Below are positions 5,137 to 34,803 of a DNA stretch of 35,216 nt, one piece after another. How positions within the stretch are numbered: the stretch's first letter is position 1; every line of letters begins with the position of its first letter. Position numbers and translations under genes: made by a program. The stretch is from Desulfobacterales bacterium S7086C20. Lineage in GTDB: Bacteria; Desulfobacterota; Desulfobacteria; Desulfobacterales; C00003060. The stretch is from assembly GCA_001751075.1 (NCBI GenBank), contig MAVP01000009.1, positions 1-35,216 of the forward strand, read 5' to 3'. The notes beneath the pieces are model-generated. The model was not told the origin of the DNA. It ran no database searches and was given only the letters and a program-made list of their open reading frames with translations.

Positions 5137-7812
5137 ATGAAAGCTTATAGACTTAGAAACCGTGTCCTCCTTCCGTTGGCACTGGCTATAGCCGTCCTGC
5201 TAGGGGCATTCATATTCAGTTTCTACCGGTTAGAACAAAAACACATGTCTGACGACGTGATGAGCAAATTGGAGTCTGTAGAAGACCTGTTCGCCGCGCA
5301 GTTGGACAGTGATGCCGGTATGATGGGCGCAGGGCTAGGAGTGATCCTGCGTGACGAACAACTCAAAGCTGCATTGAAGGCTAAGGACAGGGAATCGCTA
5401 CTTAGGCTGGCTCGACCTCTATTTGAAGAGTTGCGCTCTGAGCACCGGGTCACCCATTTCTATTTCACGGGTCCCGATCGCATCAATATCTTACGGGTTC
5501 ATAAACCAGAAAAGCATGGCGATAAAATCAATCGCTTTACGACGTTGGAAGCCAAGAACACCGGTAAACAGTCTTACGGTATAGAGCTAGGCCCTCTGGG
5601 AACGTTTACTCTCAGGGTAGTCGAACCATGGTACGACGCAGAACAGTTGATTGGCTATGTTGAACTGGGCGAGGAGATCGAGCACATCGTAGACAAAGTG
5701 GAAAAAATCCTCGGCGTCGTAATCTACATTTTCATCGAGAAAAAATACCTGAACCGTGAGAACTGGAAGGCTGGCATGCAGATGCTCGGCCGTCAAGCTG
5801 AATGGGATCGGTTCCCTTCGGCCGTTATGATTTACCAGGGTATGGAGACATTCCCTGAATGTTTTGCCGAGTTATTGCCTAAAGAACAACATACGTCCAA
5901 ATCGACGTGTGTAAATGTTTCATTGAATGATCGCCGCTATCACGGCAGATTCATCTACTTAAATGACGCTGGTGGCCGCCATGTTAGCGACATGGTGGTT
6001 ATGGACGACGTCACCGGTTTAACAGAAAATCTCTACACCGCCCTTTTCCTTGTTGGAGGAGTCTGTGTAACAGTCGGCGGGGCCTTGTTTGTCCTATTCT
6101 ACATGTTTATGGGCCGAGTTGAAAGGCAATTGAAAACTGCTAACCAGGATCTGGGCGAAGCCAACAAACAGCTTGAACAGGAGATCGAGAGAGCTAGCGA
6201 GTTGGCCAAACAAGCTGAGATGGCCAACCGTTCCAAAGGTGAGTTCTTGGCAAGCATGAGCCACGAGATCCGCACGCCTATGAATGGGGTGATCGGTTTT
6301 ACGGACATGCTTTTAGATACCAACCTGGATGATGAGCAGATCGATTTTGCTGAGACGATAAAACGAAGCGGTGAGGGACTGCTTACCCTGATCAACGACA
6401 TACTTGATTTTTCCAAGATCAAGGCCGGCCATTTGGAGCTTGAAACTGTTGATTTTGACCCCGAAGTTACTGCCTATGACGTTTGCGAGTTGATTCGTCC
6501 CAAAGTGCAAGAAAAGCCTGTCGAGATAATGTGCCGCATAGGCGATGAAGTTCCAGCATATGTCAGTGGCGACCCTGGTCGCTTTAGACAAGTGCTGATA
6601 AACCTCATGGGCAATGCTGTCAAGTTCACTGAAGCAGGTGAAATAGAACTATCTATTGAACTAACAGAGGAACACGATGATAGGATAAAACTGCATGCCA
6701 GTATTCGGGATACTGGAATCGGTATCCCCAAAGATAAGGTTGACACCATCTTTGATGTCTTTCAACAAGCCGATATATCCACGACTCGAAAATACGGCGG
6801 TACCGGTCTGGGACTTCCTATCTGCAAGAATATCGCCCAGATTATGGGTGGTGATGTGTGGGCAGAAAGCCCTTCGACTTCGCTCAGGACGGGCGAACCT
6901 GGCAAGGGGAGCACCTTTCACTTTACGGCTTGGCTGGGAAAGCCCGAAAATAAACAAGTAAAGAGACTTGCCCCAGTTTCGCTTTCCGGTAAGAAGGTTC
7001 TCATTTTTGATGATAATGAGAAAAACCTGGCTATTGTAACTCACATTGCGGAATCAGCTGGTATGCATGCAGTCGGAATCACAGCGGCGGACAAAGCCGT
7101 ACCAACTGTGAAAAGTTTCATTGAGTCTGGCGCTCCCGTTGACGTTTGTATTCTGAACATCCAGATACCTGGAAAAAGTGGATATGACATAGCAAGTGAA
7201 ATTCGAAATGCACAATCACAGATTGCTCACATGGTTTTGATTGCTTTTTCCTCTTCCGCGGAGCGGGATGCGAAGAAGTGCTTAGATGCAGGCTTTAACG
7301 GTTTTTTGCCCAAACCGATCCATCGGATAAAACTCTTGAATATGATGGCAAAGTTACTGGGTAAAGGCAGAGAAAAGAAGAAAGAGGGTACAATTGTCAC
7401 ACAGCATTCCATGCGGGAGGAGGCTAAGCATTCTGCTCGTATCCTTTTGGCAGAGGATAATCCTGTCAATCTGAAGTTGGCAAAAATGATAATGACAAAG
7501 GCTGGCTATCAAGTGGAGGTCGCCAACAATGGCCGAGAGGCAACCGAGAAATTCACATCATCTCCCGACGACTACGACCTGATCTTCATGGATATCCAGA
7601 TGCCAGAGATGGACGGCATGAAAGCAACAAGAGCAATCAGAAAAAAGGGATTTAGCACCATTCCGATCATTGCTATGACAGCCAATGCAATGAAAGGCGA
7701 TAGGGAAAAGTGTCTTGAAGCAGGCATGGATGATTATATTCCAAAACCGATCAAGAGGGAGATTGTGTTTGAGATGCTTGAGAAGTGGGTTTTGAACAAG
7801 GAAGATTCATGA
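5137..7812 (+). CDS. Membrane hybrid sensor histidine kinase with two receiver domains
   Basis: An 891-aa sensor. TM1 spans about residues 10-30. Residues 31-296 form an extracytoplasmic sensor region resembling a Cache-type fold. TM2 is about 299-325, then a coiled coil (330-370). HisKA has H376 in SHEIRTP. HATPase_c has the N-box near N489-N493, DTGIGIP at D525 and GGTGLGL at 554-560. Receiver 1 (about 618-740) has the acidic pair D625-D626 and K726, but Asn674 where the phosphoacceptor Asp should be. Receiver 2 (about 767-885) is intact (E773-D774, D819, T848, K870). Residues 579-586 are an 8-aa insertion from a 24-bp repeat, between ESP-type and GKGSTF motifs of the ATPase domain. No good Shine-Dalgarno precedes the ATG. 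No output partner is adjacent. Confidence 0.93.
6871..6894. repeat. 24-bp repeat inserted in frame in the kinase ATPase domain
   Basis: The 24 bases read CTTCGACTTCGCTCAGGAC at their core and encode PSTSLRTG. Homologous kinases run directly from WAES into EPGKGSTF, so the gene carries an exact 8-codon addition. The core resembles a short dispersed repeat commonly seen in environmental bacterial genomes, from memory. No second copy was noticed in this window. Confidence 0.6.
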
Positions 7813-11868: not shown

Positions 11869-12789
11869 CTATGTTTCTTTTAGACTTCCTACAATCTCAC
11901 TGATATCGGAGATGTTGTGTTTTTCCAGATAGGTTTCAAGGCCTTCCACGATTTCAACAGAAGCCTTTGGATTTACCAAGTTGGCGGTGCCAACCTGTAC
12001 GGCAGTAGCGCCTACGATGAGAAATTCCAGGGCGTCTGTTGTATTCATGATGCCGCCAATTCCGATGACAGGTATACAAAGCGCCTTAACAGTATTCCAT
12101 ACCATCCGCAGCGCAATGGGCTTGATGGCAGGCCCGGACAGCCCACCTATGATGTTTGCGAGCTTCGGTTTGCGAGTTTCTATATCTACAGCCATGGCAG
12201 AGATCGTATTAATCAAGGAGACGGCATCTGCTCCCGCTTCTTCCACGCTTTGAGCTATAGCTACAATATCCGTAACATTCGGTGAGAGTTTGACGATTAT
12301 GGGAAGCTTTGTCTTGGCTTTTACCTTCTTTGTGACTTTAAATGCCGCTGTCGGATCAGTGCCAAATGCCATACCTCCTTCCTTTACATTGGGACAGGAG
12401 ATGTTTACCTCAATTGCCGCTATTCCACTGAGAGTGTCGATACGTTGCGCCAGTTCACCATATTCTTCAGTGCTCTGAGCGTATATATTTAGGATGACAG
12501 CAGTATCCAAAGACTGTAGAAATGGAAGTTTTCTTTCGACAAATGCCTCGAATCCGACATTTTCGAGGCCAATAGAGTTAATCATTCCTCCGCAGGTCTC
12601 AACGGTGCGTGGAGGTGGATTGCCATGTGTTGGCCGGAGGGAAAGGCCTTTGGTTATTACGGCTCCCAAGCGGTTTACGTCAAAGAATGGCGAAAACTCC
12701 CGACCATATCCAAAGGTGCCGGAAGCTACCATTACAGGATTCTTTAGCTTGATGCCGCCTATATCTACTGCAAGGTTCGGTTTTTTCAT
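11869..12789 (-). CDS. pyrD: Dihydroorotate dehydrogenase, class 1B catalytic subunit
   Basis: A 306-aa FMN enzyme that oxidises dihydroorotate to orotate in pyrimidine synthesis. Visible are the FMN barrel start (NPVMVASGTFGYG), the KGLSLRPTHGNP and NSIGLEN substrate loops, the class 1 catalytic Cys132 in VNISCPNVKEGG, IVKLSPNVTDI, and the phosphate-binding end (IGIGGI, AVQVGTANL). Class 1B enzymes use an NAD+/Fe-S partner, PyrK, which is not adjacent. No strong Shine-Dalgarno is seen. It is transcribed divergently from the kor-hdrA operon, with 144 bp between starts. Confidence 0.94.
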   Translation of the reverse strand: MKKPNLAVDIGGIKLKNPVMVASGTFGYGREFSPFFDVNRLGAVITKGLSLRPTHGNPPPRTVETCGGMINSIGLENVGFEAFVERKLPFLQSLDTAVILNIYAQSTEEYGELAQRIDTLSGIAAIEVNISCPNVKEGGMAFGTDPTAAFKVTKKVKAKTKLPIIVKLSPNVTDIVAIAQSVEEAGADAVSLINTISAMAVDIETRKPKLANIIGGLSGPAIKPIALRMVWNTVKALCIPVIGIGGIMNTTDALEFLIVGATAVQVGTANLVNPKASVEIVEGLETYLEKHNISDISEIVGSLKET

Positions 12790-26468: not shown

Positions 26469-27401
26469 CTATCCTTTGCTAGAGAAATCGACGATCCATC
26501 TAATAAGGTTGATACCGATGAGAATGAAGCCTTCCATTCGGGAGACTCGAAAACCTGTGCGCATAAAAATAACCACTAGTACGACTACTGCCACCAGAAG
26601 ATAGACACTGTGCAGGCCGGCGGGGTCAATCTGAAGAGGCCCAAGCATGCCGGCCAGCCCAAGAACCCCTAGGATATTATACAAATCACTGCCGATGAGA
26701 TTGCCAATAGACATTGCGTAACGCCCCTTGATGGCGGCCATAAGTGAAGTGGCAAATTCAGGCGCTGAAGTGCCCGCTGCAACGATGGTAACGCCGATAA
26801 CCCATTCTGATAGGCCGAGTCCTCTTGCTAAGGATGTCGCTGACCATACGAGTAAGTGACCACCACTTACAACACCGACAATTCCTGCAACCAGTATCGG
26901 TACGTCTTTTAAGGAGGCTTCTTGTCCATGATCTGTCTCCGTGGTAGGGGATTTTTTCCAAAAAAGATAGCCAATATAGATGACGAGAGAAGAAAATAGT
27001 ATAAGGCCTTCATGAGGTGTTAGACGCAAGTCCGTGAGAAATAAAGCTAAAACGGTTGACATTGCAATCAAGAAAAGACCGTCTCTCCATACTATGGTTG
27101 GGGTTGTGACGATTGTCCGGATAGCGGCACATCCGCCCAGTATAAATCCAAGATTGAAGATATTAGATCCTACCACGTTGCTTACAGATATATCGGACAA
27201 TCCACGAAGGGCGGCATTTATTGTTACGGCAAATTCGGGTGCAGAGGTTCCGATGGCCACAACGGTTAGTCCAATAGCCAAATCTGACATGTGTAGTTTG
27301 TGTGCAATGCGAACAGCTGAATCTACGACCCACTCAGAACCCTTCCAAAGGAATCCAGCGGACACGACTATTAGGAGTATATCTAGAAATATATTATGCA
27401 T
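26469..27401 (-). CDS. Ca2+(or Na+)/cation antiporter, CaCA family
   Basis: A 310-aa inner-membrane exchanger with about ten hydrophobic helices in two inverted halves. The alpha repeats are clear: IGLTVVAIGTSAPEFAVTIN with VSNVVGSNIFN, and IGVTIVAAGTSAPEFATSLM with SIGNLIGSDLYN. The conserved Glu and Asn/Asp of these repeats coordinate the ion. A short hydrophilic loop (KKSPTTETDHGQEASLKD) separates the halves. This architecture fits YrbG-like K+-independent exchangers. Start ATG 27401 has AAGG at short spacing. It sits 104 bp upstream of the activase gene on the same strand; functional linkage is not evident. Confidence 0.9.
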   Translation of the reverse strand: MHNIFLDILLIVVSAGFLWKGSEWVVDSAVRIAHKLHMSDLAIGLTVVAIGTSAPEFAVTINAALRGLSDISVSNVVGSNIFNLGFILGGCAAIRTIVTTPTIVWRDGLFLIAMSTVLALFLTDLRLTPHEGLILFSSLVIYIGYLFWKKSPTTETDHGQEASLKDVPILVAGIVGVVSGGHLLVWSATSLARGLGLSEWVIGVTIVAAGTSAPEFATSLMAAIKGRYAMSIGNLIGSDLYNILGVLGLAGMLGPLQIDPAGLHSVYLLVAVVVLVVIFMRTGFRVSRMEGFILIGINLIRWIVDFSSKG

Positions 27402-27430: not shown

Positions 27431-27455
27431 TGACGACTTCGCAAAAGGTCTGATT
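27431..27455. repeat. Truncated end of the 34-kb MITE-like repeat family
   Basis: TGACGACTTCGCAAAAGGTC followed by TGATT matches the left end of the element at 34244 with one mismatch. No right end or conserved GTACG core is found nearby, so only one terminus remains. It lies between the exchanger start and the glycosyltransferase stop. Confidence 0.6.
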
Positions 27456-27552
27456 TTGTTCTTTCCGTGCACGATTCTGGAAAGGGTTCTAGGAGTCAAG
27501 GATTCAAGGGGCCGAGTGCTTTTGTTTTATTCGCTGTTTTCAACTGAATAAC

Positions 27553-32944: not shown

Positions 32945-34060
32945 ATGTTTGATAGAAGGCTGATTCAGCATTTTGATTGGGTCTTGTTGGGCTTGACCTT
33001 GGTGTTGGCCGGCATAGGTATTCTTACGCTTTACAGTGCCGTAAATGCAAGTGCAGCTCTTGGTCGTCCAACAGGACCGCCGGTTTATCTGAAGCAACTG
33101 TATTCGTTTGGTGTTGCAACGATTGCTATGGTGGTAATGTTCCTTTTTAATTACAAGTTGTTACATAGATGGGGAGGTGTCATTTACGGCTTTTCCATTG
33201 CCTTGCTTTTGGCAGTGCTCCTTGCAGGAAAAGAGGTTTCTGGTTCCCAGCGCTGGCTTATGCTGGGGCCATTGTCCTTTCAACCATCGGAAATTGCGAA
33301 AATCACCGTCGCTATTGTGCTTGCAAGGTATTTTTCTGATCATATGTCGCAGGAGGGTTTTGGGCTAAGAAATCTATGGAAACCTCTTTTTTGGTGTTTG
33401 TTCCCCTTTTTGCTTATAGCGAGGCAGCCGGATCTTGGCACAGGCTTGGTTATTCTTTTGATTGCCGCATCTATGACGTTATTTGTCAAGGTTGAGCGAC
33501 GTGCCATGATTTGTCTGACTGGCGCCGGGGTTTTTATGTGTTCGGTGGCCTGGTTTTTCCTAAAGGAGTATCAGAAGCAGCGGATAGCCATCTTTGTGGA
33601 TCCGGGAAAAGACCCCCTGGGAGCCGGCTATCACATTATTCAGTCTAAGATTGCTGTGGGGTCCGGAATGTTTTGGGGAAAAGGGTTTCTGGAAGGGACT
33701 CAAAATGCCCTTTCTTTTTTGCCCGAACAGCACACAGACTTTATTTTTTCCGTTTTGGCGGAAGAATGGGGTTTTTTGGGTTCAGCCGTATTTGTAGGGT
33801 TTTACGTTGCGACAATCGTGTGGGGGTTGAGTATCGCAATGCGTTCCAAGGAACCATTCGGGACAGTTTTGGCCGTGGGTATTACGAGTATGTTGTTTTG
33901 GCAGGCGGTGATAAATGTGGGCATGGCGTTGGGGCTGTTACCCGTGGTGGGAGTTCCGCTTCCACTGATCAGTTATGGGGGTTCATCACTGCTCGTTACG
34001 TCGATTGGGATAGGAATTCTCATGAATATTAGTATGAGAAGATTCATGTTCAAGAGCTGA
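32945..34060 (+). CDS. rodA: Peptidoglycan glycosyltransferase RodA
   Basis: A 371-aa SEDS-family membrane glycosyltransferase that polymerises lipid II with PBP2. About ten membrane helices. Diagnostic segments: GSQRWLMLGPLSFQPSEIAKI, RQPDLGTGLVIL (the putative catalytic Asp), GAGYHIIQSKIAVGSG, FLPEQHTDFIFSVLAEEWGFLG and PLPLISYGGSSLLVTSIGIG. The last codons (MRRFMFKS) end at a TGA that is also the first three bases of a repeat element, so the native C-terminus may have been set by insertion. The ATG lacks a strong Shine-Dalgarno (TTAGGGATTGGCG lies upstream). Confidence 0.96.
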   Translation: MFDRRLIQHFDWVLLGLTLVLAGIGILTLYSAVNASAALGRPTGPPVYLKQLYSFGVATIAMVVMFLFNYKLLHRWGGVIYGFSIALLLAVLLAGKEVSGSQRWLMLGPLSFQPSEIAKITVAIVLARYFSDHMSQEGFGLRNLWKPLFWCLFPFLLIARQPDLGTGLVILLIAASMTLFVKVERRAMICLTGAGVFMCSVAWFFLKEYQKQRIAIFVDPGKDPLGAGYHIIQSKIAVGSGMFWGKGFLEGTQNALSFLPEQHTDFIFSVLAEEWGFLGSAVFVGFYVATIVWGLSIAMRSKEPFGTVLAVGITSMLFWQAVINVGMALGLLPVVGVPLPLISYGGSSLLVTSIGIGILMNISMRRFMFKS

Positions 34061-34211
34061 CGACTTCGCAAAAAGCCCATCTGCGGCGTTGCGCTTCATC
34101 TTTCGTCACTGCGACGTACGATAAGTACGTCTCATTCCTCAACATAGCGCCACTGAAGTGGCTTGAGGACAGTACGCGCGCCTTGCATCTGGAGCTTTTT
34201 ACTGTGTCGTC
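34058..34211. repeat. MITE-like palindromic element, copy A (inverted relative to copy B)
   Basis: The left end GACGACTTCGCAAAAAGC (34059-34076) is inverted at 34194-34211 (GCTTTTTACTGTGTCGTC) with 14 of 18 matches. The core holds GACGTAC-GATAA-GTACGTC. Its reverse complement aligns over about 75 bp with copy B. The first bases TGA form the rodA stop codon. It has no coding capacity. Its palindromic ends could fold in RNA and influence read-through to bactofilin. Confidence 0.65.
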
Positions 34212-34243
34212 CGTTTGTGGACTTTTTACAAGTCCATCAAAAC

Positions 34244-34396
34244 TGACGACTTCGCAAAAAGTCTGATTTAGACGGTCTTGTAAGAAGTTCAAATTCAAGG
34301 CGTGCAAATTTTGTAATCATGAGGCGTACTTATCGTACGTTGAATGATTGCGAAATGCAGCACAACACAGAAGTTGGACTTTTTACGAGACCGTCA
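34244..34396. repeat. MITE-like palindromic element, copy B
   Basis: TGACGACTTCGCAAAAAGTC (34244-34263) and GACTTTTTACGAGACCGTCA (34377-34396) are 20-bp inverted ends, 16 of 20 matching. The core GCGTACTTATCGTACGTTG is the reverse complement of the copy A core. The 153-bp element ends 24 bp before the bactofilin start. Between copies, 34212-34243 carries an extra end-like fragment (GACTTTTTACAAGTCCATCA). Confidence 0.65.
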
Positions 34397-34419
34397 AAAC
34401 TTATGGTATGGAGGTTCGT

Positions 34420-34803
34420 GTGAAGAAGGCAAAAAAGGGGATACAGACATTTCTGGGGCCGGACACTACCCTGGAAGGCAAACTTGCTTTTGAGGGGACA
34501 GTTAGGTTGGATGGGCATTTTACTGGTACCATAGAAAGCAAAGATGGTTTGATGATTGTAGGAGAAAAGGCAGTTGTTCGAGCGGACATTTTGGTCCATA
34601 CCGCTACTGTTCATGGGGAGGTAAGCGGTAATATTCGAGCAACGCATTGCATTGAATTGCATCCGCCGGCACGGGTTAATGGTGATCTTAATGCTCCCGT
34701 AGTAGTTATTGACGCCGGGGTGGTTTTTCACGGCAACTGTACCATGAAGCCCGACAATGAACCGGCAGGCAAAACGATCAATTTGGCTGAATGGCAGAAC
34801 TAG
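34420..34803 (+). CDS. Bactofilin family cytoskeletal protein
   Basis: A 127-aa polymer-forming protein with a right-handed beta-helix core. The core repeats appear as TFLGPDTTLEGKLAFEGTVR, GHFTGTIESKDGLMIVGEKAVVRADI, TVHGEVSGNIRATHCIELHPPARVNGDL and APVVVIDAGVVFHGNC. The N-terminal Lys-rich tail (VKKAKKG) is membrane-binding in some bactofilins. GTG 34420 is chosen because GGAGGT ends 4 nt upstream; ATG 34408 would place that GGAGGT inside the gene. It follows the elongasome genes, fitting a role in shape or polar organisation, but repeats A and B separate it from rodA. Confidence 0.9.
   Translation: MKKAKKGIQTFLGPDTTLEGKLAFEGTVRLDGHFTGTIESKDGLMIVGEKAVVRADILVHTATVHGEVSGNIRATHCIELHPPARVNGDLNAPVVVIDAGVVFHGNCTMKPDNEPAGKTINLAEWQN

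Follow-up and report, generated by a model that had tools for sequence, protein, structure and literature searches.

The window, which is the whole 35,216-nucleotide stretch of DNA analyzed here, contains a rodA gene followed by a bactofilin gene. The gap between the two genes is nearly filled by two homologous elements, A (34058 to 34239) and B (34244 to 34396), that lie head to head. The bactofilin GTG start codon at 34420 is 24 bp beyond the end of B and has a GGAGG sequence upstream. The features of the locus are listed below, with the ends, cores and the shared AAAACT identified directly in the sequence.

32945 to 34060, + strand: rodA (PF01098, E = 7e-99); its TGA stop at 34058 to 34060 is the junction between target site and element A
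34053 to 34058: left target-site copy of A, AGAGCT, whose last T opens the rodA stop codon; four of six bases agree with the AAAACT on the right
34059 to 34238 (34058 to 34239 with flanking T and A), + strand: element A, a MITE of the amplified subfamily of about 180 bp (GACGAC...CCATC), 93 to 96% identical to many copies in the same genome
34116 to 34128, + strand: core of A, GTACGATAAGTAC
34191 to 34211, - strand: inner right end of A, GACGACACAGTAAAAAGCTCC; homologues share the doubled end
34219 to 34238, - strand: outer right end of A, GATGGACTTGTAAAAAGTCC
34239 to 34244: AAAACT, the right target copy of A and the left target copy of B
34245 to 34395 (34244 to 34396 with flanking T and A), - strand: element B, a 151-bp MITE of a second subfamily, oriented opposite to A, 89 to 94% identical to copies in its own and other genomes; RNA fold z = -10.7
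34245 to 34269, + strand: outer left end of B, GACGACTTCGCAAAAAGTCTGATTT; a near-identical lone end occurs elsewhere
34271 to 34395, + strand: hairpin body of B, from inner left end to right end, based on folding and on covariation over 47 homologues
34326 to 34338, - strand: core of B, again GTACGATAAGTAC
34396 to 34401: right target copy of B, AAAACT, a perfect 6-bp duplication with 34239 to 34244
34420 to 34803, + strand: bactofilin gene with a GTG start (PF04519, E = 4e-26)
27431 to 27456, + strand: lone remnant of an outer end of the B type, identical to 34244 to 34269 at 25 of 26 positions

Boundaries of the elements and orthologous loci

An earlier note had described the region as two inverted copies of a MITE-like palindromic family, and most of its layout is borne out. 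The outer limits of 34058 and 34396 stand, as do the inverted ends (arms 34058 to 34135 and 34319 to 34396, 78 nt, 72% complementary), the shared core and the 24-bp distance between B and the bactofilin start. The length of about 154 bp proposed for both copies is right for B (153 bp) but not for A (182 bp). Similarly, copy A was said to provide the rodA TGA. This codon does lie at 34058 to 34060, but only its GA comes from the element and its T comes from the target site, so it is a junction codon.

Element A carries about 28 bp of additional end on its right, where the outer end lies next to the inner end. In B, the doubled end is mirrored on the left, with 34245 to 34269 next to 34271 to 34290. 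This mirroring agrees with the orientation given in the earlier note and is what two homologous, oppositely oriented elements would show. The two are about 75% identical over only about 80 bp and belong to different subfamilies. The closest relatives of B are other copies, at 89 to 94% identity, and its subfamily is rarer than that of A. The terminal T and A of both elements act as target bases, which leaves 34059 to 34238 and 34245 to 34395 as the elements proper.

The lone end previously placed at 27431 to 27455 is real. It comprises 26 bp, is one base off the outer left end of B, and zero such matches are expected from shuffled sequences. This end has no partner and is located about 30 bp upstream of a Na/Ca exchanger gene (26469 to 27401, - strand).

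The end of rodA in relatives G016 and G017 provides a natural empty site, AAGGAGTGATTCC (AAGGAG TGA TTCC), with the bactofilin start a few bases downstream. Two copies of AAGGAGT enclose an element in G015, exactly at the point defined by this empty site. The length of the G015 rodA product is unchanged, and the bactofilin Shine-Dalgarno sequence AAGGAG is restored behind the element. The G015 insertion reads best as a 7-bp duplication rather than a 6-bp one, which counts against the explanation favored below. Another copy is present at the rodA stop in G006, and no element occurs in the rodA-bactofilin gaps of G019, G012, G011 and G018. Element A is about 90% identical to the G006 copy over 87 bp, with one internal segment missing, versus 93 to 96% for dispersed copies in its own genome, which favors the view that this stop codon was hit independently in the two genomes. 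Among the species checked, the A-B pair is unique to this one. The idea that the region is a conserved orthologous spacer, which the earlier note had offered as a refutation, was rejected because the gaps in relatives are empty or contain a different copy.

A high-copy family with a palindromic target site

The ends of the family are GAYGRHYTCGYAAAAAGTC, with the general form GA(C/T)G...C(G/A)TC. When the end pattern TGAYGRMYTCGYAAAAAGTC was scanned through the 2.65-Mb host genome with up to three mismatches allowed, 266 matches were found (138 on the + strand and 128 on the - strand), versus seven for the reversed pattern used as control. This number corresponds to roughly 130 copies. The 371-bp region has 84 BLAST matches in the host genome. 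For closer analysis, about 1.0 Mb of this genome was sampled as stretches. The earlier note had named further genomic copies as a test, and many were found, so the refutation it proposed, an absence of such copies, fails. Inward-facing end pairs in this genome cluster at about 154, 183 and 233 bp. Elements are 80 to 320 bp long and contain no transposase gene; between end pairs that lie farther apart there are ordinary genes.

At least one exact end is present in 22 of 22 genomes of the genus, and element A is matched in 30 of 60 relatives. Exact ends are also found in many MAGs of Desulfobacteraceae, Desulfobacterales and Syntrophaceae, and in a few labelled Nitrospirae (L225 and L264) or Aminicenantes (L212 and L229). 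The ends in MAGs outside Desulfobacterota reflect either horizontal transfer or mis-binned contigs. Element B is 90 to 93% identical, over about 138 to 153 bp, to MAG copies from the genus and from other families of the order (L236, L195, L261, L215 and L285), and this closeness suggests recent activity or horizontal spread.

Five stretches from IMG/VR contigs classed as viral (L185 to L189) carry family ends, all in short elements, and a search of a plasmid collection for the family gave no match. Several copies (L036, L038, L039, L040, L044 and, in G015, L137) contain an additional palindrome, CCCTGTTAAAT...ATTTAACAGGG, at one fixed internal position. This insert is about 50 bp long, is shorter in G015, and its occurrence in two species suggests that the subfamily is old or shared. 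On contig C4 of G000, two copies (5885 to 6067 and 11905 to 12087; L073) also have near-identical flanks and thus represent a local duplication that includes flanking DNA.

An exact 4-bp duplicated core flanks 45 of 83 delimited copies, where 1.9 are expected and the maximum in 1000 shuffles is nine. Identity between the flanks is 91% and 89% when one base is added on each side and falls to background further out, which sets the duplication at 6 bp. Also, in several copies with a non-consensus terminal base, the same base is found in the opposite flank, and this is direct evidence that the terminal bases belong to the target. At least five of six bases are duplicated at 143 copies (60 in the host genome and 83 in other records), and all six at 95 of these. 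The target logo is the palindrome TYAANNTTRA, including in copies away from stop codons, and the duplicated 6 bp are mostly AANNTT. At the rodA locus, B is inserted in the AAAACT that adjoins A and has a perfect duplication; that of A (AGAGCT and AAAACT) agrees at four of six bases, and A is either older or altered since. The order in which the two elements were inserted is not certain.

These data show that the family works like a MITE. The defining features that were tested are present apart from a known parent, and the earlier note correctly described a MITE-like palindromic family. The family has more than 100 copies, which end in inverted repeats, duplicate 6 bp of target and carry no internal transposase, and orthologous sites in relatives are empty. 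Fixed-length target duplications with terminal inverted repeats are typical of DDE transposition, whereas Y1 enzymes are not expected to produce them. The palindromic shape and its covariation (see below) might instead point to dispersed structured RNA genes, or to extragenic palindromes of the REP/BIME kind that a Y1 (RAYT-type) transposase mobilizes. However, the constant 6-bp duplication and the inverted repeats at the ends speak against this, and a search of Rfam gave no match at the gathering score and none that is credible. We consider readings of this kind extremely improbable.

The explanation that we strongly favor is that A and B are separate insertions of a high-copy, noncoding MITE family whose copies are piled at stop codons by target preference and selection. 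Inverted ends together with a duplication of constant length suggest a DDE-type transposase that would move the element in trans, with a preference for TYAANNTTRA and duplication of 6 bp, mostly AANNTT. Where the junction follows the T of a stop, it would read T-GA (the hyphen marks the junction), leaving the gene at full length with a TGA stop. In tight operons, the duplicated bases could also preserve the Shine-Dalgarno sequence of the next gene. Because the target motif includes T-RA, and because selection in a gene-dense genome would remove insertions elsewhere, copies would accumulate at stop codons. At this locus, A would have entered the rodA stop codon and B the site adjoining A. Points against this explanation are the imperfect duplication of A, the G015 insertion, the simple ORF models behind the stop-codon counts and the unsuccessful search for a parental transposase.

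A parental transposase with the same ends, for which the earlier note had proposed a search, was sought without success in a collection that includes many MAGs and is incompletely sampled. None was found at the 378 near-perfect ends examined, in ORFs inside 21 unpaired ends, or between inward-facing end pairs 0.7 to 2.8 kb apart at all loci examined. Genes for DDE_Tnp_1, ISNCY and IS1634 transposases were collected over 60 relatives, and none of the fetched loci, when scanned for family ends, has such a gene flanked by them. An origin from IS1634 was rejected, because IS1634-type genes of the same order lie in delimited elements whose ends differ (CTCAAGTTTCGCACCCC and CCGAGTTT). Multicopy insertion sequences are frequently missing from MAG assemblies, so the absence of a parent is weak evidence.

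Insertion at stop codons

Because the element begins with GA, a copy that lands behind the T of a stop codon (T-GA, T-AA or T-AG) recreates TGA. The rodA TGA is one such junction. For the 143 copies, the element and one target copy were removed, and stops of ORFs of at least 100 codons were counted within 60 bp. In the reconstructed empty sites, 21 of 97 stops lie exactly at T-RR (11 TGA, five TAA and five TAG), versus seven at the next best position. The accumulation is replicated, with nine cases in the host genome and 12 in other genomes; two of these represent one shared insertion, which leaves 20 independent cases. The peak at T-RR is firm.

Since TYAANNTTRA contains TRA (TAA or TGA), part of this effect is sequence preference. 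Logo-weighted stop and intergenic positions predict that 3.4% of copies are at stops, yet nine of 60 copies in the host genome (p = 2e-4) and 20 of 142 in the full set (p = 1e-7) are found there. With less strict criteria, a previous test had yielded 28% observed versus 11% expected. The excess beyond target preference is suggestive, because the gene models are simple ORFs of at least 100 codons. Perhaps the target specificity and the terminal GA together make stop codons a safe harbour, which the element would enter more often than sequence predicts, leaving a working TGA and converting TAA or TAG to TGA; we advance this reading tentatively. Alternatively, the transposition machinery might actively recognize the ends of translation or transcription, beyond target sequence and selection, as the roughly fourfold excess over the sequence-weighted expectation would allow. 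However, the target motif itself contains T-RA, and the expectation only partly models essential neighbourhoods and survivorship. Active recognition is unlikely.

RNA folding and relation to known repeats

The 47 homologues, which come from many species, are nearly all 152 to 155 bp long and align end to end. Their consensus hairpin has 35 pairs, with 96.5% of cells paired versus 34 to 44% when the partners are slid. Both sides changed in 126 cells versus 43.7 in shuffles, although this shuffle test is inflated by relatedness and the slide control is stronger. Judged from these alignments, the palindrome is maintained across species by compensatory changes.

The earlier note had also proposed that A and B could form one long RNA hairpin controlling read-through. 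Such a pair would be a dedicated device that terminates or attenuates transcription between rodA and the bactofilin gene. The 72% complementarity of the 78-nt arms, the very stable folds and the shared operon order in relatives are consistent with this idea. However, A and B fold locally at -69.0 kcal/mol (z = -5.1) and -69.6 kcal/mol (z = -10.7), about -139 kcal/mol in total, versus -74.2 kcal/mol for the A-B duplex, and the joint minimum-free-energy structure has 50 pairs within A, 50 within B and 13 between them. Moreover, the gap is empty or different in relatives, and of the species checked only this one has the pair. Copies follow the background of gene orientations (44 tandem, 12 convergent and 10 divergent, versus 343, 69 and 79), with no convergent bias, and a search for intrinsic terminators (a G+C-rich stem with a U-tract) found one versus 0.9 in shuffles. 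A dedicated A-B device is very unlikely. By analogy with Correia and ERIC elements (PMC10969869), any effect on the rodA-bactofilin message would most likely be passive, in that a stable 3' hairpin may influence RNA stability or cause mild attenuation.

No published description of this MITE family was found in the open-access literature searched. Its closest parallels include the Correia elements (NEMIS) of Neisseria, which are likewise high-copy hairpin MITEs with terminal inverted repeats, occur as 107- and 155-bp species and are mostly intergenic (PMC2229807, PMC10969869). Most bacterial repeats of this kind have been described with a 5'-TA-3' terminal motif (PMC2229807). In contrast, the present family has another sequence, GA...TC ends that rebuild TGA and a TYAANNTTRA target of which 6 bp are duplicated, and membership in the Correia, ERIC or RUP families was rejected. 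ERIC sequences of enterobacteria resemble it as conserved imperfect palindromes in intergenic regions and at the 3' ends of genes (PMC10969869), but differ in sequence, in hosts and in the 6-bp duplication found here. A precedent for a repeat as the source of a stop codon is BOX of Streptococcus pneumoniae, which supplies the stop of the upstream gene in 36 cases, without strong evidence for truncation (PMC3049150). However, BOX is modular and unrelated in sequence, whereas the present family restores the stop at a single, fixed base of the junction, T-GA. MITEAba12 of Acinetobacter is also a MITE with terminal inverted repeats and constant length that is spread over a family, with intact duplications in about 40% of copies, but its duplications are 9 bp, its parent is ISAba12 and it has no target motif (PMC6382973), in contrast to the specific target and 6-bp duplication described here.

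The MITE family spans Desulfobacterales and relatives, many of them bacteria of the sulfate-reducer type, and is new relative to the literature searched. It indicates how a gene-dense genome can take up many copies of a mobile element and suffer little, the junction itself rebuilding the stop codon. The predicted consequences are that stop codons are converted to TGA, that many operons gain 3' hairpins, and that a transposase exists whose target can be read.
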